In this document: positions 10,856-36,416 of the stretch, piece after piece
Layout: every line of letters begins with the position of its first letter
How positions within the stretch are numbered: position 1 is the stretch's first letter
From: a virus
Strand: one strand, 5' to 3'
IMG/VR virus record: IMGVR_UViG_3300017963_000103
Span: 1-44,603 of that record
Length of the DNA: 44,603 bases
Program-made: the position numbers and the translations under genes
The notes under the pieces: model-generated
Told to the model about the DNA's origin: nothing
Database searches by the model: none
The model's input: the letters and a program-made list of their open reading frames with translations, nothing else

Positions 10856-10879
10856 AGGGCGGCCATCTCTGGCCGCCTT
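10856..10879 (-). promoter_or_regulatory. GC-rich hairpin between head genes
   Basis: GGCGGCC (10858-10864) and GGCCGCC (10871-10877) form a 7-bp all-GC stem with a 6-nt loop, extended by one wobble and one A-T pair. It has no clean U-tract on the minus strand (CTTATAAGG follows), so it may act as a processing or attenuation signal rather than a terminator. Confidence 0.5.
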
Positions 10880-25701: not shown

Positions 25702-25941
25702 TTATTTATTATTAAAGCCAGTCAAATAAATATCTACCAAATAATTCAAGGTGTTAGCTTGTGACATATCCAAAAGTATACACACCTCGTCAAAGTCTTC
25801 CTTCTCTGCATCGTTAAGCCTGATATTTACGTTGTTGGTTCTTGGGTCTTCTTTTGGCTTACGTCCTTGGTTGCCGTGTCGACCTCTGCCGTCTTTTTTA
25901 ACTTGAATACAAATCTTTTTATCATTTTCAAATGCAGCCAC
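25702..25941 (-). CDS. Ribbon-helix-helix-like DNA-binding protein
   Basis: 79 aa from a GTG at 25941. A basic, Gly/Arg-rich N-terminus (residues 15-32) is followed by NNVNIRLNDAEKEDFDEVC and LLDMSQANTLNYLVDIYL, a strand plus two helices as in Arc/CopG regulators. A GGAGAGAG site lies immediately after a very stable UUCG hairpin (25958-25973). Probably a phage transcription regulator. Confidence 0.55.
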   Translation of the reverse strand: MAAFENDKKICIQVKKDGRGRHGNQGRKPKEDPRTNNVNIRLNDAEKEDFDEVCILLDMSQANTLNYLVDIYLTGFNNK

Positions 25942-25957
25942 CTTTACTCTCTCCTCT

Positions 25958-25973
25958 GCCCTCCGAAGAGGGC
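25958..25973 (-). promoter_or_regulatory. UUCG-capped hairpin upstream of ribosome site
   Basis: Minus strand GCCCTC-TTCG-GAGGGC: six GC-rich pairs closed by a C(UUCG)G tetraloop. It sits a few bases before the GGAGAGAG site of the RHH gene and after the stop of the 88-aa gene. There is no U-tract, so processing, stability or translational control is more likely than termination. Confidence 0.6.
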
Positions 25974-25983
25974 TTGATTATAA

Positions 25984-28277: not shown

Positions 28278-28289
28278 AAATTGTTTTTG

Positions 28290-28363
28290 CACCTGAGTGG
28301 GACTCGAACCCACGACCCAAGAGTTTTAATCTTGTTGCTCTTACCAACTGAGCTATACTGGCG
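28290..28363 (-). tRNA. tRNA-like gene, apparent anticodon AAA (Phe?)
   Basis: Minus strand: D-arm GCTC-AGTTGGTAA-GAGC, anticodon arm CAAGA-TTAAAAC-TCTTG, T-arm GTGGG-TTCGAGT-CCCAC, total 74 nt. Acceptor CGCCAGT pairs with TCAGGTG at only five of seven positions (A-A and T-T mismatches). There is one extra base before the D-stem and one before the anticodon stem. U33 is present and the loop reads anticodon AAA, a very rare Phe reading. No CCA is encoded. A degenerating tRNA or an unusual functional one. Confidence 0.55.
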
Positions 28364-29403: not shown

Positions 29404-29461
29404 GGTTAATCGGATTTATCGTATTCGGTCGTCGGATGTTATAGCATTCGGTTAATCGGAT
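29404..29461 (-). repeat. 12-bp direct repeat inside the tRNA-like element
   Basis: GGTTAATCGGAT occurs at 29404-29415 and 29450-29461, with related CGGT/CGG motifs between. It lies at the downstream end of the non-coding element. Confidence 0.55.
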
Positions 29462-29650
29462 ATTAAATGTTCAATGTTATTGTATTTGGAGTTCCTTCAA
29501 GGTTTTTATGAGAACCAAGAACTCTACAATTCTTTTGCTCTACCAATTGAGCTACAGCTTCTCAGCCGGGCGGACTTGAACCACCAACATAAAGATCCAA
29601 TTTGTATTCGCTTAATAGGCGATTCCAGCTTACTGTCTGGTCAGTGCAAC
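29462..29650 (-). ncRNA. Tandem tRNA-like segments within a 333-bp non-coding gap
   Basis: The 29357-29740 stretch has no convincing gene. On the minus strand it holds a T-arm (GGTGG-TTCAAGT-CCGCC, 29569-29585) with upstream hairpins CCAG-8 nt-CTGG and TCGC-CTATTAA-GCGA (7-nt loop, U33 present). Directly after comes a canonical D-arm (GAGC/GCTC, 29537-29552) with a stem AAGAA-8 nt-TTCTT. Neither set makes a complete cloverleaf: acceptor stems are poor and the second lacks a T-arm. These are tRNA remnants or a composite tRNA-like RNA. Confidence 0.5.
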
Positions 29651-29716
29651 GATGAACCGGTATCATCTACCGTTTAAGGTACGGCGCGGACCTTTTCTCC
29701 ATCGCACCTATCGCAC

Positions 29717-29740: not shown

Positions 29741-30034
29741 TTATTTATAGTCAGACATTGCAGTATCACCAACATCAATTTCTGTCGTCCAGTTTGCTTG
29801 CTGTATTGCAGCATCAACCAACCTTAACTGCCTTGCATGCCAATCAAACTCAGATGTAACTTGTGATGCTGTTAATTTTGGAACTTGTGCAACAATATCG
29901 TCAAGACTTTCTGATATTTGTTTTCTTTGTGCTTTAATTTCGAATAGGTCTTTATCTTTGATATTTTTTAAAACCTGCACCTTATCCTGTAATTCTTTCC
30001 TTCTTAATAGTGCTTCTGCTAATTTAACTTTCAT
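29741..30034 (-). CDS. DIP1984-family (septicolysin-like) protein
   Basis: 97 aa from the ATG at 30034 (GGAGAGATAGG site). It starts KVKLAEALLRRKELQDKVQV and ends with QLRLVDAAIQQANWTTEID, both typical of DIP1984 proteins, although these are usually about 150 aa. A coiled-coil N-terminus is followed by a helical body. Function of the family is unclear. Driven by the promoter at 30063-30091; its ribosome site is the exact complement of part of the candidate small RNA at 33 kb. Confidence 0.6.
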   Translation of the reverse strand: MKVKLAEALLRRKELQDKVQVLKNIKDKDLFEIKAQRKQISESLDDIVAQVPKLTASQVTSEFDWHARQLRLVDAAIQQANWTTEIDVGDTAMSDYK

Positions 30035-30062
30035 CCTATCTCTCCTTTTTTTTAGTTTATTA

Positions 30063-31036: not shown

Positions 31037-32350
31037 TTAATAATTATCGTCACTAAAAAATTTAGTAAATTCAGGCACAAACTTTAGTTTAGTCATACCT
31101 ATTGACCCCTGCCTATTCTTCCTTATTAATAATTCAGCCTTTCCTTTACTGGCTCCGATTAACTGTTCTTCTTTAGTTTCATAAACCTCATGCCGATATA
31201 AAAACATTGCTATATCTGCATCCTGCTCTAAAGCTCCTGATTCCCGTAAATCTGACATAATAGGGCGCTTGTCGTCCCTCCTTTCAAGGTTTCTATTAAG
31301 TTGGGTTAATGCGATCACTGGAAGGTTAAGAGATTTCGCAATAGCCTTTAACCCGTTTGATATTTTAGCTTTCGGGCCTTGTCCGTCTTTATTCCACCCG
31401 GAAATAAGTTGAATGTAATCTAAAACAACCAAAGATATTTTATGCTTTCTCTTAAACGATCTTGTAATTGACATAATTTCATTAATAGACAACCCTGTTT
31501 TATCTACTATGTGTATCGGCATTTCGTAAAGGTTGCCAGTTGCACTTTTAACTCTTACCCATTCAGAATCAGAAAAAGAAGCGCTTTTAAATTTCATACC
31601 ATTCACTTCTGACATTTCAGATAATAACCTGTGTGTTAATTGCTCGTTACTCATTTCCAGGCTAAAGATTAAAACAGGATAAAAATTAAAGGCTGCGTAT
31701 CTTGCGATATTAACCGCTAAAGTAGTCTTACCCATACTTGGCCTTGCGCCGATCAAAATAAGGTCAGAATTTTGAAATCCTGACGTGTGTTTGTCTAATT
31801 TTGAATACCCCGAAGGTATGCCAGAAACAAAACCATCACTTTCTCTTAATTTTTCCAGCTTATCGTAAGTTGAATTTACGATATCTTTAATGTCTGTTTT
31901 ACCTGTTTCCTCTGCTCCGATATCTGAAATATCTCTTTGTGCATTTTCTATGATATCTGTAGCAGATTTTTCTTTGTTATAACATGAAGAAGTAACACTA
32001 TGAGAAATTGTAATTAACTTTCTTAGATTTGCTGATTCTTTAATCTTTTTAACGTAGTATTCAAGGTTAACCGATACAGGGCAATCAAGAAGCCTTGAAA
32101 GATACGAAACACCTCCGGCAACCTCAAGAGTATTTGATTCTTTTAATTTGTTGGTTACAGATAACAAATCAACTTCAATATTTTGACCTTGGAGTGATTT
32201 TATAGCCTTAAATATTTCAACGTGTGCTGGCTTATAAAATTCATCTGCCTGTAAAAAAACATCGTCTATTGATTCGGAACCTATAATCAGAGATGAAAGA
32301 ACCGATTCCTCTAAATCTATGTTATTTGGTGGTTGCTTATCAAATATCAT
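31037..32350 (-). CDS. Replicative DNA helicase, DnaB-like
   Basis: 437 aa from the ATG at 32350 (GGAG nine bases upstream; an in-frame ATG eight codons earlier lies inside the upstream gene). The N-terminal domain begins PPNNIDLEESVLSSLIIG. Walker A GARPSMGKTT, Walker B LVVLDYIQLI, and TQLNRNLERRDDKRP with DLRESGALEQDAD are the DnaB signatures. It unwinds DNA for host polymerase. The neighbouring DUF4373-like gene is the likely loader/initiator. Confidence 0.9.
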   Translation of the reverse strand: MIFDKQPPNNIDLEESVLSSLIIGSESIDDVFLQADEFYKPAHVEIFKAIKSLQGQNIEVDLLSVTNKLKESNTLEVAGGVSYLSRLLDCPVSVNLEYYVKKIKESANLRKLITISHSVTSSCYNKEKSATDIIENAQRDISDIGAEETGKTDIKDIVNSTYDKLEKLRESDGFVSGIPSGYSKLDKHTSGFQNSDLILIGARPSMGKTTLAVNIARYAAFNFYPVLIFSLEMSNEQLTHRLLSEMSEVNGMKFKSASFSDSEWVRVKSATGNLYEMPIHIVDKTGLSINEIMSITRSFKRKHKISLVVLDYIQLISGWNKDGQGPKAKISNGLKAIAKSLNLPVIALTQLNRNLERRDDKRPIMSDLRESGALEQDADIAMFLYRHEVYETKEEQLIGASKGKAELLIRKNRQGSIGMTKLKFVPEFTKFFSDDNY

Positions 32351-32352
32351 GT

Positions 32353-33063
32353 TTATATCTCCGGTAGATCGCATTCGATAAAAGTAGAGGTTTGTTTTTG
32401 GGAAACAATCTCATTATTCCAACATTCACCATTAAGCCAAGTTAAAGGATTTTTTCTGTACTGCCGATCTTGAGTAGAATTTACATAAGCTGATACAGTC
32501 AAGAAAATTAATTCCTTGTCTTTTACATTTAAAGTTTTCCATTTAGCAAAGCATTTTTTTCTATCTTCTTTTTTCTGGTATAATTCCCAAAATGAATCAA
32601 ACTCTTTTTCAAGAGTATTATTTACTTTACTTTTCTTTACTTTACTTTGTTCGTTTTCGTTCATCTTCCGTTGAACGGTCGTTGAACGGTCGTTCGACAA
32701 TGCTTTCTTTCTTCTCGCTTCACCTGATTTAAGCCCTGCTTGCCTCCTTTGTTCTTTCATTGTTAGGTATGGTTTTAAGTACTCTAATAATTTTATGCTG
32801 AAAAAATTCTCTGCTTTATCAAGTGAAAAAAGCTTATAGTTTGTGACAACTGTTCGCACCTTTTGCTCACTCGTCCCAAACTCATCAGCAAGTAAGTCAA
32901 TATCTTCGATAGGGTATTTAAATTCGTCTTGCTCTCTTAGGGTTTCAAGCAACATAAAATAAATACCATAACCCTCTATACCCAATTCTTTTTGAACTCT
33001 TTTTAACTTCCGGTCATGTCTTGCATTGCAGAAGTGTGGAAAATAATAGGCATCTTTTTTCAT
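32353..33063 (-). CDS. Replication initiator / helicase loader-like (DUF4373)
   Basis: 236 aa. It starts MKKDAYYFPHFCNARHDRKL and continues GIEGYGIYFMLLETLRE, the DUF4373 N-terminal winged-helix pattern. The middle is a basic linker and the C-terminal part (about 150-225) has FWELYQKKEDRKKCFAKW and NPLTWLNGECWNNE, the pattern of phage helicase loaders. Directly upstream of the DnaB gene. Expected role: bring DnaB to the origin. Confidence 0.65.
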   Translation of the reverse strand: MKKDAYYFPHFCNARHDRKLKRVQKELGIEGYGIYFMLLETLREQDEFKYPIEDIDLLADEFGTSEQKVRTVVTNYKLFSLDKAENFFSIKLLEYLKPYLTMKEQRRQAGLKSGEARRKKALSNDRSTTVQRKMNENEQSKVKKSKVNNTLEKEFDSFWELYQKKEDRKKCFAKWKTLNVKDKELIFLTVSAYVNSTQDRQYRKNPLTWLNGECWNNEIVSQKQTSTFIECDLPEI

Positions 33064-33075
33064 AATAAACCTTGT

Positions 33076-33104
33076 TTGACATATTAATAGTTGTGTGGTA
33101 TAAG
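33076..33104 (+). promoter_or_regulatory. Plus-strand promoter in a minus-strand gene block
   Basis: TTGACA (33076-33081), 17-base spacer, TATAAG (33099-33104): eleven of twelve consensus positions. It points against the surrounding genes and lies entirely in the 101-base gap between the loader and the HTH gene. Confidence 0.5.
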
Positions 33105-33110
33105 GTAGGT

Positions 33111-33168
33111 AGTTGATATTTCCTATCTCTCCACTCTAAGCCCTTTGACGAGGGCTTTCCTTTTTTAT
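33111..33168 (+). ncRNA. Candidate small RNA with anti-Shine-Dalgarno segment
   Basis: Expected transcript from the promoter at 33076 to a hairpin plus T-run at 33138-33166, about 58 nt. Before the terminator it exposes CCTATCTCTCC (33122-33132), a perfect complement of the ribosome site of the DIP1984-like gene (30035-30045) and a near complement of several other AAGGAGAGA sites of this phage. It has no coding capacity. Confidence 0.45.
33138..33166 (+). terminator. Rho-independent terminator on the plus strand
   Basis: AAGCCCT and AGGGCTT (7 bp, 6-nt loop) followed by TTCCTTTTTTATTT. On the minus strand no U-tract follows the hairpin, so the signal works only for plus-strand transcription. 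Confidence 0.55.
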
Positions 33169-33353
33169 TTCAACCCAAGTATTCTCATATGCTTCCTAAC
33201 TGTCACATGTGATAACCCAGTTGATTCTTGACAGTCCTTCATCGTTCCGGTTCTGTTTTCTTTAAACCACTCGTAAACCCTCATCATGTTATCCGCTTCT
33301 TTTTTTTTCATGTGGTAACCCTGTTTGTTCTCGTACTTAATTAAACTTGCCAT
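33165..33353 (-). CDS. Small HTH protein
   Basis: 62 aa. KKKEADNMMRVYEWFKENR then TGTMKDCQESTGLSHVTVRKHMRILG, a winged-helix/HTH core near residues 36-58. A long GGAGAGAGAGAG site precedes the ATG at 33353. Probably a regulator; it could control the convergent small RNA region. Confidence 0.55.
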   Translation of the reverse strand: MASLIKYENKQGYHMKKKEADNMMRVYEWFKENRTGTMKDCQESTGLSHVTVRKHMRILGLK

Positions 33354-33602: not shown

Positions 33603-33788
33603 TTAAACAAAAGTCTGATAAACAGACCCAAAGTGCCACTTACCCTTACCTGTCAATGTTTCGTAATTATTTTCATTAAATATTTCTGCGATCTCTCGAT
33701 AAGTACCACCCTCAGACCTATATTTTTTAATTTCTTCAATTATCGCTTTTTTATACTGGCTTCTAAATTTAAAATCATTTCTATTCAT
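33603..33788 (-). CDS. Small HTH protein (recombinase-domain-like)
   Basis: 61 aa. GGTYREIAEIFNENNYETLTG followed by KWHFGSVYQTF resembles the C-terminal DNA-binding helix-turn-helix of large serine recombinases (the YREIAEYLNE-G-KW-V pattern) but without a catalytic domain. It overlaps the DUF1937 stop by eight bases. Likely a DNA-binding regulator. Confidence 0.5.
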   Translation of the reverse strand: MNRNDFKFRSQYKKAIIEEIKKYRSEGGTYREIAEIFNENNYETLTGKGKWHFGSVYQTFV

Positions 33789-34140
33789 TTGTTATATCCT
33801 CCGTTAATATTCTGGTTTCTAAATCTAATAAGTGAACGGGCTTTTTAAGTACCATCCTGCAATATGCTATCTCTTTTTGAACACCTTTAGACTCTTTCCA
33901 CCCTTCCATTTTAATGACTAAAACATAATCAGCCCACCGGATAAACTCAAAATCAATTTTCTCCCAAAATTCAAACCCACCAGGCAAACCCTCCTGGATT
34001 GCTATCGGGTGGGAATGTGATACCGGTGCATAGACAATATTACCCATTTTATATTGCTCCGCTGCAATCTTGTTTGACAGGCGAAAAGACTCTTCTTTAT
34101 TGACGCTGGAATATGGGATTGCGATGTATATTTTATCCAT
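33781..34140 (-). CDS. DUF1937 protein (deoxyribosyltransferase-like fold)
   Basis: 119 aa. IYIAIPYSSVNKEESF (residues 4-19), YAPVSHSHPIA (about 37-47) and IRWADYVLVIKMEGWKESKG (about 67-86) match DUF1937, a family with a nucleoside 2-deoxyribosyltransferase-like fold. It may bind a nucleotide. Coupled to the methyltransferase by a one-base overlap. Confidence 0.7.
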   Translation of the reverse strand: MDKIYIAIPYSSVNKEESFRLSNKIAAEQYKMGNIVYAPVSHSHPIAIQEGLPGGFEFWEKIDFEFIRWADYVLVIKMEGWKESKGVQKEIAYCRMVLKKPVHLLDLETRILTEDITNE

Positions 34141-35048
34141 TAGAATAGCTCCAATTGTTTAGGTTTGTTTTCAATCTGTCTCATGTTTTTAATAGCGACA
34201 TCGTAATAATTTGTTTTAAGCTCAGTTGCTATTGATTTACGGCCCATTTCAACAGCTTTATAACCCTCTGAACCGATACCACCAAATGGAGAAAAAACTA
34301 TATCCCCTGGATTACTCCATAAAGTTATACATCTTTCGATAACATCGAGTTGTAATGGGCAAATATGCTTTTCATCTTTTTCATCTCTTGCTGGAAGTTT
34401 ATTTAATGTGTTCCCTTGCCGGATATCATTCCATACAGGTGAAGCGTACTTTCGCCAAATCTCATGCGATAAAACATCCCCTTCAGGAGTCACAGCGCCA
34501 GCATAGCAAGTTAATCCTGTTTCGTGTGTTATAAAGTTTTCGTTTACCCCTGGTTTTCTCATAGATACAACATAATCAGGCAATCCCTGACGGCACATAG
34601 ATGAATCTTTACATAGTTGCTTGTGCATCAAACCAAGCGCTTTTGTTCTTACTGCTTCTATTAATGGGTCTTTCCATATTGTAACCTCTGAATGAAATAT
34701 AAAACCCTCTTTTTGAAACATCCGGATAAGGTCACCTCTGAAATCTTTAATCCCGATAAACCCGTCTCTTTCCTTCATTGCTGGGATAAGCATACAATGA
34801 AACGAAACAATTCTGCCAGCCTTAATGGTACGGTATAATTCTTTAACAAGATAGCTGAATTGTGTATAAAACTCTTCATCAGATGCGCTGTTGCCCATGT
34901 CATTAATTGAGTCTGAATATGTATATAAAGATGCGAAAGGTGGCGAAAAAATAGAATAGTCAAGGCTGTTATCTTCAAAGTTACTAATTATTTCAACACA
35001 ATCACCATTATACAAGCTCCAGTTTTCTGAATGTTCCTGATTCAACAT
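34140..35048 (-). CDS. DNA methyltransferase, N4/N6 class
   Basis: 302 aa. Motif IV SPPF (residues 35-38, in YSIFSPPFASLY) precedes the SAM-binding motif I FSPFGGIGSEGYKA near 255-268, the beta-class order; an SPPF/Y motif favours N4-cytosine, though N6-adenine is possible. NGDCVEI near residue 14 is the usual N-terminal feature. It probably protects phage DNA from host restriction. It follows the SNF2-type helicase by 3 bases. Confidence 0.8.
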   Translation of the reverse strand: MLNQEHSENWSLYNGDCVEIISNFEDNSLDYSIFSPPFASLYTYSDSINDMGNSASDEEFYTQFSYLVKELYRTIKAGRIVSFHCMLIPAMKERDGFIGIKDFRGDLIRMFQKEGFIFHSEVTIWKDPLIEAVRTKALGLMHKQLCKDSSMCRQGLPDYVVSMRKPGVNENFITHETGLTCYAGAVTPEGDVLSHEIWRKYASPVWNDIRQGNTLNKLPARDEKDEKHICPLQLDVIERCITLWSNPGDIVFSPFGGIGSEGYKAVEMGRKSIATELKTNYYDVAIKNMRQIENKPKQLELF

Positions 35049-35051
35049 GAT

Positions 35052-36416
35052 TTAGTTCCTCATAAATTTAGGTATAATAAAAGTTTCTGTTTTAGTTTTA
35101 GATTTTCTTGATCCTGTTTTGATTTGGTTAACACTATTTAAACTGATATGTTTAACCATTCTTTCAAGCATTGCCTTTGCGTTTGCCTCTTTCCTCTTAA
35201 TGTTTTCAAGAACATTTCCCTCTTTTTCTGAAATAATAATATGAACATTTACCGGGTGTTTCTGACCAAACCTATAACAACGCCTTAGCGCCTGATAAAA
35301 TGATTCAAAAGAATCCGACAGGCCAACAAAACACATATTATGGCACGATTGCCAATTAAGGCCGAATTGTGCTATTTTTGGTTTGGTGGTAAGTTTTTCT
35401 ATTTCATTTTCTGAAAATGCCAGCATGTTTTTTTCTTTCTTTTCGTTTTTATCTGCACCTTTAACCTCAACACAATTATCGATTAATTCTGTTAGTAATG
35501 AACTTTCATCATTTAAATTGCACCAGTTTAAGAATTGCTCTGACGTTGAATTGTTAAGATCGGCTGCGAGCTTGCACCTGTCACCAATACTTTCCTTTCT
35601 TGCCTGTCTTCTTTCATTCAAAGTCTCTGCATATCTGACAAACAATTCACCATGTTCTGGCTCTGACTTTACAATATGTTCAAACATATTAAGAGGTGGT
35701 AATTTCATATGTGCATCGTCATAACCAATATCAGACGGTTTCTCAATCATAACAGCCCAATTAGAAACCCATTTAAAAAACTTGCTCTCTGCATGGCCTT
35801 TCAATCGCCACTTTTGAGTTGATCCTGAGTCATGAATAAAATATGTCGCCAACATTTCAACCCTGGAACATACATTTAAAAATTCAGCATGTGTTCCAAT
35901 TTCCGTAAAATCGTTTGGTGATGGAGTAGCAGAACAGCATAGCTTATATTTAGTGTTGTAAAAGCTTTCGACTATTTTTGTTTTAATAGCGCCTGAAAAA
36001 TTTTTCAATATACTCGATTCATCAAGGATGATTCCAGAGAAAACAGAACAATCAAACTTATGTAATTTTTCGTAGTTCGTTATATTTATACCACTAATAA
36101 TATCATTACTATCAGAACAAATATTAATATCTAAACCAATTAATAAGCCTTCTTTTTTTGTTTGTGCTGTAACGCCCAATGGTGCAAGTATCAAAATAGG
36201 TTTTTTAGTTTTTAAATAAACGTTTTGTGCAAATGTTAATTGCATTAATGTTTTACCAAGACCACATCCGGCCCAAATTGCAGCCTTACCTTTTTTGACA
36301 GCCCACACAACAAGATCATGCTGAAAGTCAAATAAAATATCAGGCATAAATACAGGTTTGAACCCGATATTTTTAATTGATCTTTCTTTAGTTTTTATAA
36401 ACTCTGAATACTTCAC
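35052..36416 (-). CDS. SNF2-type helicase
   Basis: 454 aa. Walker A GCGLGKT (residues 50-56), DESS box (132-135), SATPSPND (162-168), then a C-terminal lobe with TKPKIAQFGLNWQSC and LRRCYRFGQKHPVNVH (motif VI R-x-x-R-x-GQ). The family, often paired with a methylase, is common in phages. No methylase domain is present here; the next gene supplies it. Possible roles are remodelling of replication or restriction complexes. Confidence 0.8.
   Translation of the reverse strand: MKYSEFIKTKERSIKNIGFKPVFMPDILFDFQHDLVVWAVKKGKAAIWAGCGLGKTLMQLTFAQNVYLKTKKPILILAPLGVTAQTKKEGLLIGLDINICSDSNDIISGINITNYEKLHKFDCSVFSGIILDESSILKNFSGAIKTKIVESFYNTKYKLCCSATPSPNDFTEIGTHAEFLNVCSRVEMLATYFIHDSGSTQKWRLKGHAESKFFKWVSNWAVMIEKPSDIGYDDAHMKLPPLNMFEHIVKSEPEHGELFVRYAETLNERRQARKESIGDRCKLAADLNNSTSEQFLNWCNLNDESSLLTELIDNCVEVKGADKNEKKEKNMLAFSENEIEKLTTKPKIAQFGLNWQSCHNMCFVGLSDSFESFYQALRRCYRFGQKHPVNVHIIISEKEGNVLENIKRKEANAKAMLERMVKHISLNSVNQIKTGSRKSKTKTETFIIPKFMRN

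Follow-up and report, generated by a model that had tools for sequence, protein, structure and literature searches.

A predicted antisense transcription unit, consisting of an extended -10 promoter, a short RNA and an intrinsic terminator, occupies a 101 nt gap (33064-33164) that separates two minus-strand ORFs (33165-33353 and 32353-33063) of the window, i.e. the whole stretch of phage DNA analysed here (44,603 nucleotides; IMGVR_UViG_3300017963_000103, positions 1-44,603). We consider it an even call whether this convergent unit, like lambda pO-OOP, damps the replication operon it faces through promoter interference and antisense pairing. Relatives of the gap occur in two further uncultivated viral contigs, L001 and L133, giving three members in total. 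The features of the window on which the argument depends are as follows.

31037-32350, minus strand: DnaB-like replicative helicase, the next gene of the operon (protein match)
32353-33063, minus strand: replication initiator (Lin1244_N; phrog_2562)
33076-33081, plus strand: -35 hexamer TTGACA (from sequence; counterpart TTGACT in L133)
33096-33104, plus strand: extended -10, TGG TATAAG (hexamer TATAAG at 33099-33104)
33111-33168, plus strand: predicted small antisense RNA of about 58 nt (from sequence; folded computationally)
33122-33132, plus strand: CCTATCTCTCC (from sequence)
33127-33132, plus strand: CTCTCC, anti-Shine-Dalgarno core, predicted mostly unpaired (identical in three phages)
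33138-33168, plus strand: intrinsic terminator, hairpin and U-tract (its end overlies the upstream gene's stop codon)
33165-33353, minus strand: 62-aa ORF with a helix-turn-helix, lying upstream in the opposing operon (phrog_1687, weak MarR-like match)
30035-30045, minus strand: GGAGAGATAGG, ribosome site of ORF 29741-30034 (DUF6847), the trans target proposed in the original prediction

The 17 nt spacer between TTGACA and TATAAG ends in TGG, placing TG one base ahead of the -10 hexamer, and the -35 hexamer begins about 13-15 nt from the start codon of the initiator gene. The terminator hairpin (AAGCCCTT-TGAC-GAGGGCTT, 33138-33157) is followed by TCCTTTTTTAT. With its start inferred from the -10 hexamer and its end from the T-tract, the predicted product is a short RNA with an intrinsic terminator at its end, whose tail overlaps the stop codon of ORF 33165-33353 by about 4 nt. 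Both the coordinates and the letters of the TTGACA-17-TATAAG promoter and terminator that the original prediction placed in this gap are correct. A point absent from that prediction is that the small RNA is a perfect antisense of the leader of ORF 32353-33063, at the head of the replication initiator operon; the leader of the replication mRNA is the certain partner of the predicted RNA, the one that its position guarantees, and the complementarity is perfect.

Units were scored in a custom promoter-plus-terminator scan of both strands, in which the maximum of 13 represents 12 hexamer bases plus TG. The unit at 33076-33168 scores 12 and is the sole promoter-terminator unit of at least 9/13 in 44.6 kb; a standard promoter scan misses it because T is demanded at the sixth -10 base, a requirement that excludes TATAAG. 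Dinucleotide shuffling of the window (n = 1000) produced a score of 12 in no case, 11 in 2 and 10 in 26. Since none of the 1000 shuffles is as good, sequence statistics speak against the unit being a product of chance, and we regard it as a real sequence feature whose transcription is predicted.

The homologous gaps were reached via their protein neighbourhood, not by motif search. L001 (IMGVR_UViG_3300033153_003115) was reached through its initiator protein (59% identical), near which two small proteins have 79% and 82% identity to the window; its gap, 102 nt long, lies between a 62-aa ORF and an XRE-type helix-turn-helix ORF. L133 (IMGVR_UViG_3300031578_000125) was reached by alignment of the family of a neighbouring 61-aa ORF. 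The antisense strand of the L133 gap contains TTGACT-17-TGA-TATCTT, CTCTCC and a terminator (AAGCCCTTATTAACGTAAGGGCTT-TTCTTGTATTAT), with the promoter at the corresponding position (P = 0.00085 versus shuffled gap sequence). The antisense strand of the L001 gap contains a similar hairpin with CTCTCCAC, and its TTGCTT-17-TGG-TAAGGT does not exceed chance (P = 0.26 versus shuffled gap sequence); the L001 promoter is therefore read as eroded and as giving no independent support for a promoter. The 17 nt spacer is common to all three, and the distance from the -35 element to the antisense of the downstream start codon is 16 bases for L133 and L001 and 15 bases for the window. On the sense strand of the gap no comparable promoter is present in the window, L001 or L133 (best 7-8/13). 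The original reading of this segment as a plus-strand small RNA gains support from the shuffle statistics together with the homologous unit in L133.

An antisense-strand terminator passes in all three gaps, with a hairpin of seven to eight pairs in each and one G-C to C-G double change, a modest covariation that control shuffles reach in 177/500. The CUCUCC core is identical across the three phages, and the folds predicted for their RNAs leave it mostly unpaired. A search of ~1.16 Mb for CTCTCC followed by a terminator within 25 nt, with no promoter required, returned the three gaps and a single other place, at 25949 of the window, where a hairpin precedes the ribosome site of ORF 25702-25941. 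MAFFT alignment of the gaps leaves scattered invariant columns only. A two-hairpin fold common to the window and L001 was considered as a defining feature and dropped, because the fold is not evident in L133 on inspection and the predicted RNA starts only downstream of the fold's 5' arm. In every member the unit heads a replication operon: the downstream genes encode a Lin1244-type initiator and DnaB in the window, a helix-turn-helix protein and a Lin1244-type initiator in L001, and a 192-aa ORF, a Phage_rep_org_N initiator and a DnaB helicase in L133. The unit thus appears to be kept while neighbouring genes, even the initiator family, differ.

Hairpins that follow a stop codon without such a promoter occur elsewhere in these phages (window 10856-10879 and 25958-25973; L138:4337-4354). 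The first is a strong GC-rich hairpin between a stop codon and an AAGGTG ribosome site. The second, within 25946-25976, immediately precedes the GGAGAGAG ribosome site of ORF 25702-25941, in the same hairpin-then-GGAGAG order as in the gap but with no comparable antisense promoter. A-rich DNA ahead of a post-stop hairpin mimics an antisense T-tract, and because such arrangements occur elsewhere the terminator counts for less than the promoter as evidence. The caveat originally attached to the small RNA, that the segment may be a relic of a minus-strand ribosome site, stands, given that 25958-25973 also has a hairpin with a GGAGAG ribosome site after it.

From leader complementarity and the lambda-like layout we infer promoter interference plus an antisense brake. 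The extended -10 promoter just ahead of the initiator start codon would fire against the replication operon, and RNA polymerase leaving it would collide with leftward transcription. The ~58 nt RNA would pair with the mRNA leader encoded opposite, and this pairing would block the leader or lead to its cleavage, for example by RNase III. The outcome would be damped synthesis of replication proteins or a tuning of transcription through the replication region, with the cis-antisense brake as the main action and pairing with other phage ribosome sites as a secondary one.

In lambda, the pO promoter lies right beside the start codon of O and points against pR; it reduces transcription from pR, and normal replication depends on it (PMC3985674). 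The OOP RNA overlaps 52 bases of cII (PMC5869508). The lambda order cII - pO/oop - O - P is like that of the window, i.e. a small regulatory gene, a convergent promoter at the initiator start, a short terminated RNA, an initiator and a helicase (PMC3985674, PMC5869508). Like OOP, the predicted RNA would come from a convergent promoter adjoining the start codon of the initiator, but it does not reach far into the 3' end of a cII-type gene: only ~4 nt of ORF 33165-33353 are covered, and the predicted RNA lies almost wholly within the leader, unlike OOP with its 52-base overlap. The ORFs searched included no recognisable cII or lysogeny module, and since no integrase or repressor was recognised there with confidence, a lysogeny role is not indicated. 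We know of no CUCUCC seed described for OOP. The unit resembles OOP in layout, and neither common descent with OOP nor family membership is claimed; its function is putative. To our knowledge, lambda is the main case in which convergent antisense units fronting replication initiators have been described in detail. If such a unit is indeed present in unrelated uncultivated phages and kept across a change of initiator family, it would suggest a recurrent solution for setting phage replication, and the long-unclear role of pO-type promoters would become open to comparative test.

CopA of plasmid R1 and RNAIII of pIP501 are copy-control antisense RNAs encoded opposite the leader of an initiator gene; both exceed the predicted RNA in size, are strongly structured and work through a leader peptide or an attenuator. 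The predicted RNA is likewise antisense to an initiator mRNA leader (ORF 32353-33063), but none of the window, L001 and L133 has a conserved leader peptide to which the initiator could be coupled and, unlike in attenuator-type copy control, no sense-strand terminator is present in the gap. In having an unpaired CU-rich anti-Shine-Dalgarno stretch before a terminator hairpin, the RNA is also similar to MmgR/suhB (alpha-r8, RF00519). Membership of that family was rejected, the weak Rfam match over 33111-33172 scoring 15.6 bits (E 0.61) against a gathering score of 41. Among phage regulatory RNAs, P22 sar acts as a cis-antisense and lambda PreS in trans (PMC12197685); both are also phage-encoded, and their position, target and sequence differ from those of the window RNA.

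The principal alternative on the antisense strand is that of the original prediction, an anti-Shine-Dalgarno RNA. Here the unpaired CUCUCC tail would act in trans, binding GGAGAG-type ribosome sites of phage or host and blocking translation, which as the explanation of the unit we judge unlikely. The core itself held up, being invariant and mostly unpaired as a conserved seed would be, and pairing of the RNA tail with the ribosome sites of the window beats that of fully shuffled tails (mean 3/200, minimum 4/200). In L001 the RNA has a 13 nt complement over the start region of a helicase/methyltransferase gene, matched in 1/300 flank shuffles. But once CTCTCC is held fixed, pairing in the window is ordinary (minimum 41/300, longest 20/300) and L133 shows nothing (279/300), so that only L001 exceeds its control in pairing beyond the Shine-Dalgarno core. 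The described match to the ribosome site at 30035-30045 is indeed an exact complement, of 11 bases or 12 with a flanking base, but it does not mark a special target, since 20/300 flank shuffles with CTCTCC fixed equal it. Target prediction gave a different best target in each phage, DUF6847 in the window, the helicase/methyltransferase gene in L001 and none in L133, and none is conserved; silencing in trans is accordingly unsupported beyond generic Shine-Dalgarno complementarity. A perfect cis complement would, moreover, dominate wherever both RNAs are made. Late timing is not readable from sequence, and the suggestion that early genes are silenced at late times is weakly supported. A trans role is possible but secondary to the cis-antisense brake. 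We think it quite improbable that a single ~60 nt RNA of a new family does both jobs, as a cis replication brake and as a trans regulator of ribosome sites through CUCUCC, in a unit left intact while the genes on both sides and the initiator type are swapped.

Alternatively, the conserved element could belong to the sense strand, as a post-stop hairpin followed by GGAGAG within the replication mRNA leader. It would then be kept for the processing or stability of that mRNA, for ribosome standby or for a short leader peptide, and the plus-strand promoter would be secondary or accidental. GGAGAG is conserved equally on the sense strand, the hairpin before the ribosome site at 25958-25973 and the further post-stop hairpins fit this explanation, and both strands of the gap fold, the sense strand almost as well as the antisense. 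GTG or TTG codons lie at a usable distance from GGAGAG in L001 and L133, but the possible frames differ between those two, and the window is without ATG, GTG or TTG near GGAGAG, so a conserved leader peptide was rejected. A promoter as good as that of the window is also very rare by accident in gap-sized DNA (1e-4), and the L133 promoter stands at the corresponding offset (P = 0.00085); overall, we find a sense-strand element rather unlikely as the explanation. The gap might instead be a recombination boundary, a joint for swapping early and replication cassettes with no RNA product, as the differing genes on either side of a conserved gap of about 100 nt could suggest. Conservation is concentrated on the promoter, CUCUCC and terminator, without continuous identity across the alignment, and we hold this to be very improbable. 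That an accidental promoter happens to stand beside an ordinary intergenic hairpin draws on the many partial promoters of AT-rich phage DNA (31 weaker matches in 10 kb, the same as in shuffles); set against the shuffle statistics and an independent L133 homologue with matching spacing and position, it is extremely improbable.

Further searches added no members beyond these three. The unit is absent from L079, a Desulfobacteraceae MAG with a similar gene order (60-aa helix-turn-helix ORF, then initiator). When 395 genomes from the G006 phylum were searched with the initiator and the family of the 61-aa ORF, no locus carried the unit. The motif GTGGAGAG...ACCTTA..CCAC gave 47 matches in viral contigs, of which only L001 was genuine on inspection, and TCTCCAC...AGGG.TTTCC gave L001 and L131, the latter a chance match overlapping unrelated genes. 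The exact terminator string had no match in viral contigs, Rfam returned nothing reaching gathering level on the gap, and the gaps of the window and of L001, compared with phages by blastn (E up to 10), gave just short, chance-level matches.

Several other features of the neighbourhood were recorded. Inside the initiator gene, 32618-32700 contains tandem GACCGTTCAAC, a palindrome and 15 nt direct repeats, which are possible origin repeats; records G003 and G004 each contain a similar stretch twice. A 61-62 aa protein family, weakly like the helix-turn-helix stretch of phage integrases (phrog_95), is repeated upstream of the replication genes (window 33603-33788; L001:4411-4599; L133:4983-5171). 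The helicase and DNA methyltransferase are two adjoining ORFs in the window (34140-36416) and one fused 834-aa ORF in L001. On the minus strand, 29420-29660 contains a piece that resembles a tRNA (GCTGTAGCTCAATTGGTAGAGC) together with repeats similar to CCGATTAACC, a stretch called by neither Rfam nor ARAGORN, and a tRNA-Phe gene at 28289-28363 has the anticodon AAA, which is uncommon for bacterial tRNA-Phe. The best cellular match with both a similar small helix-turn-helix ORF and an initiator is a Desulfobacteraceae MAG contig, which we take as a hint only of the host.
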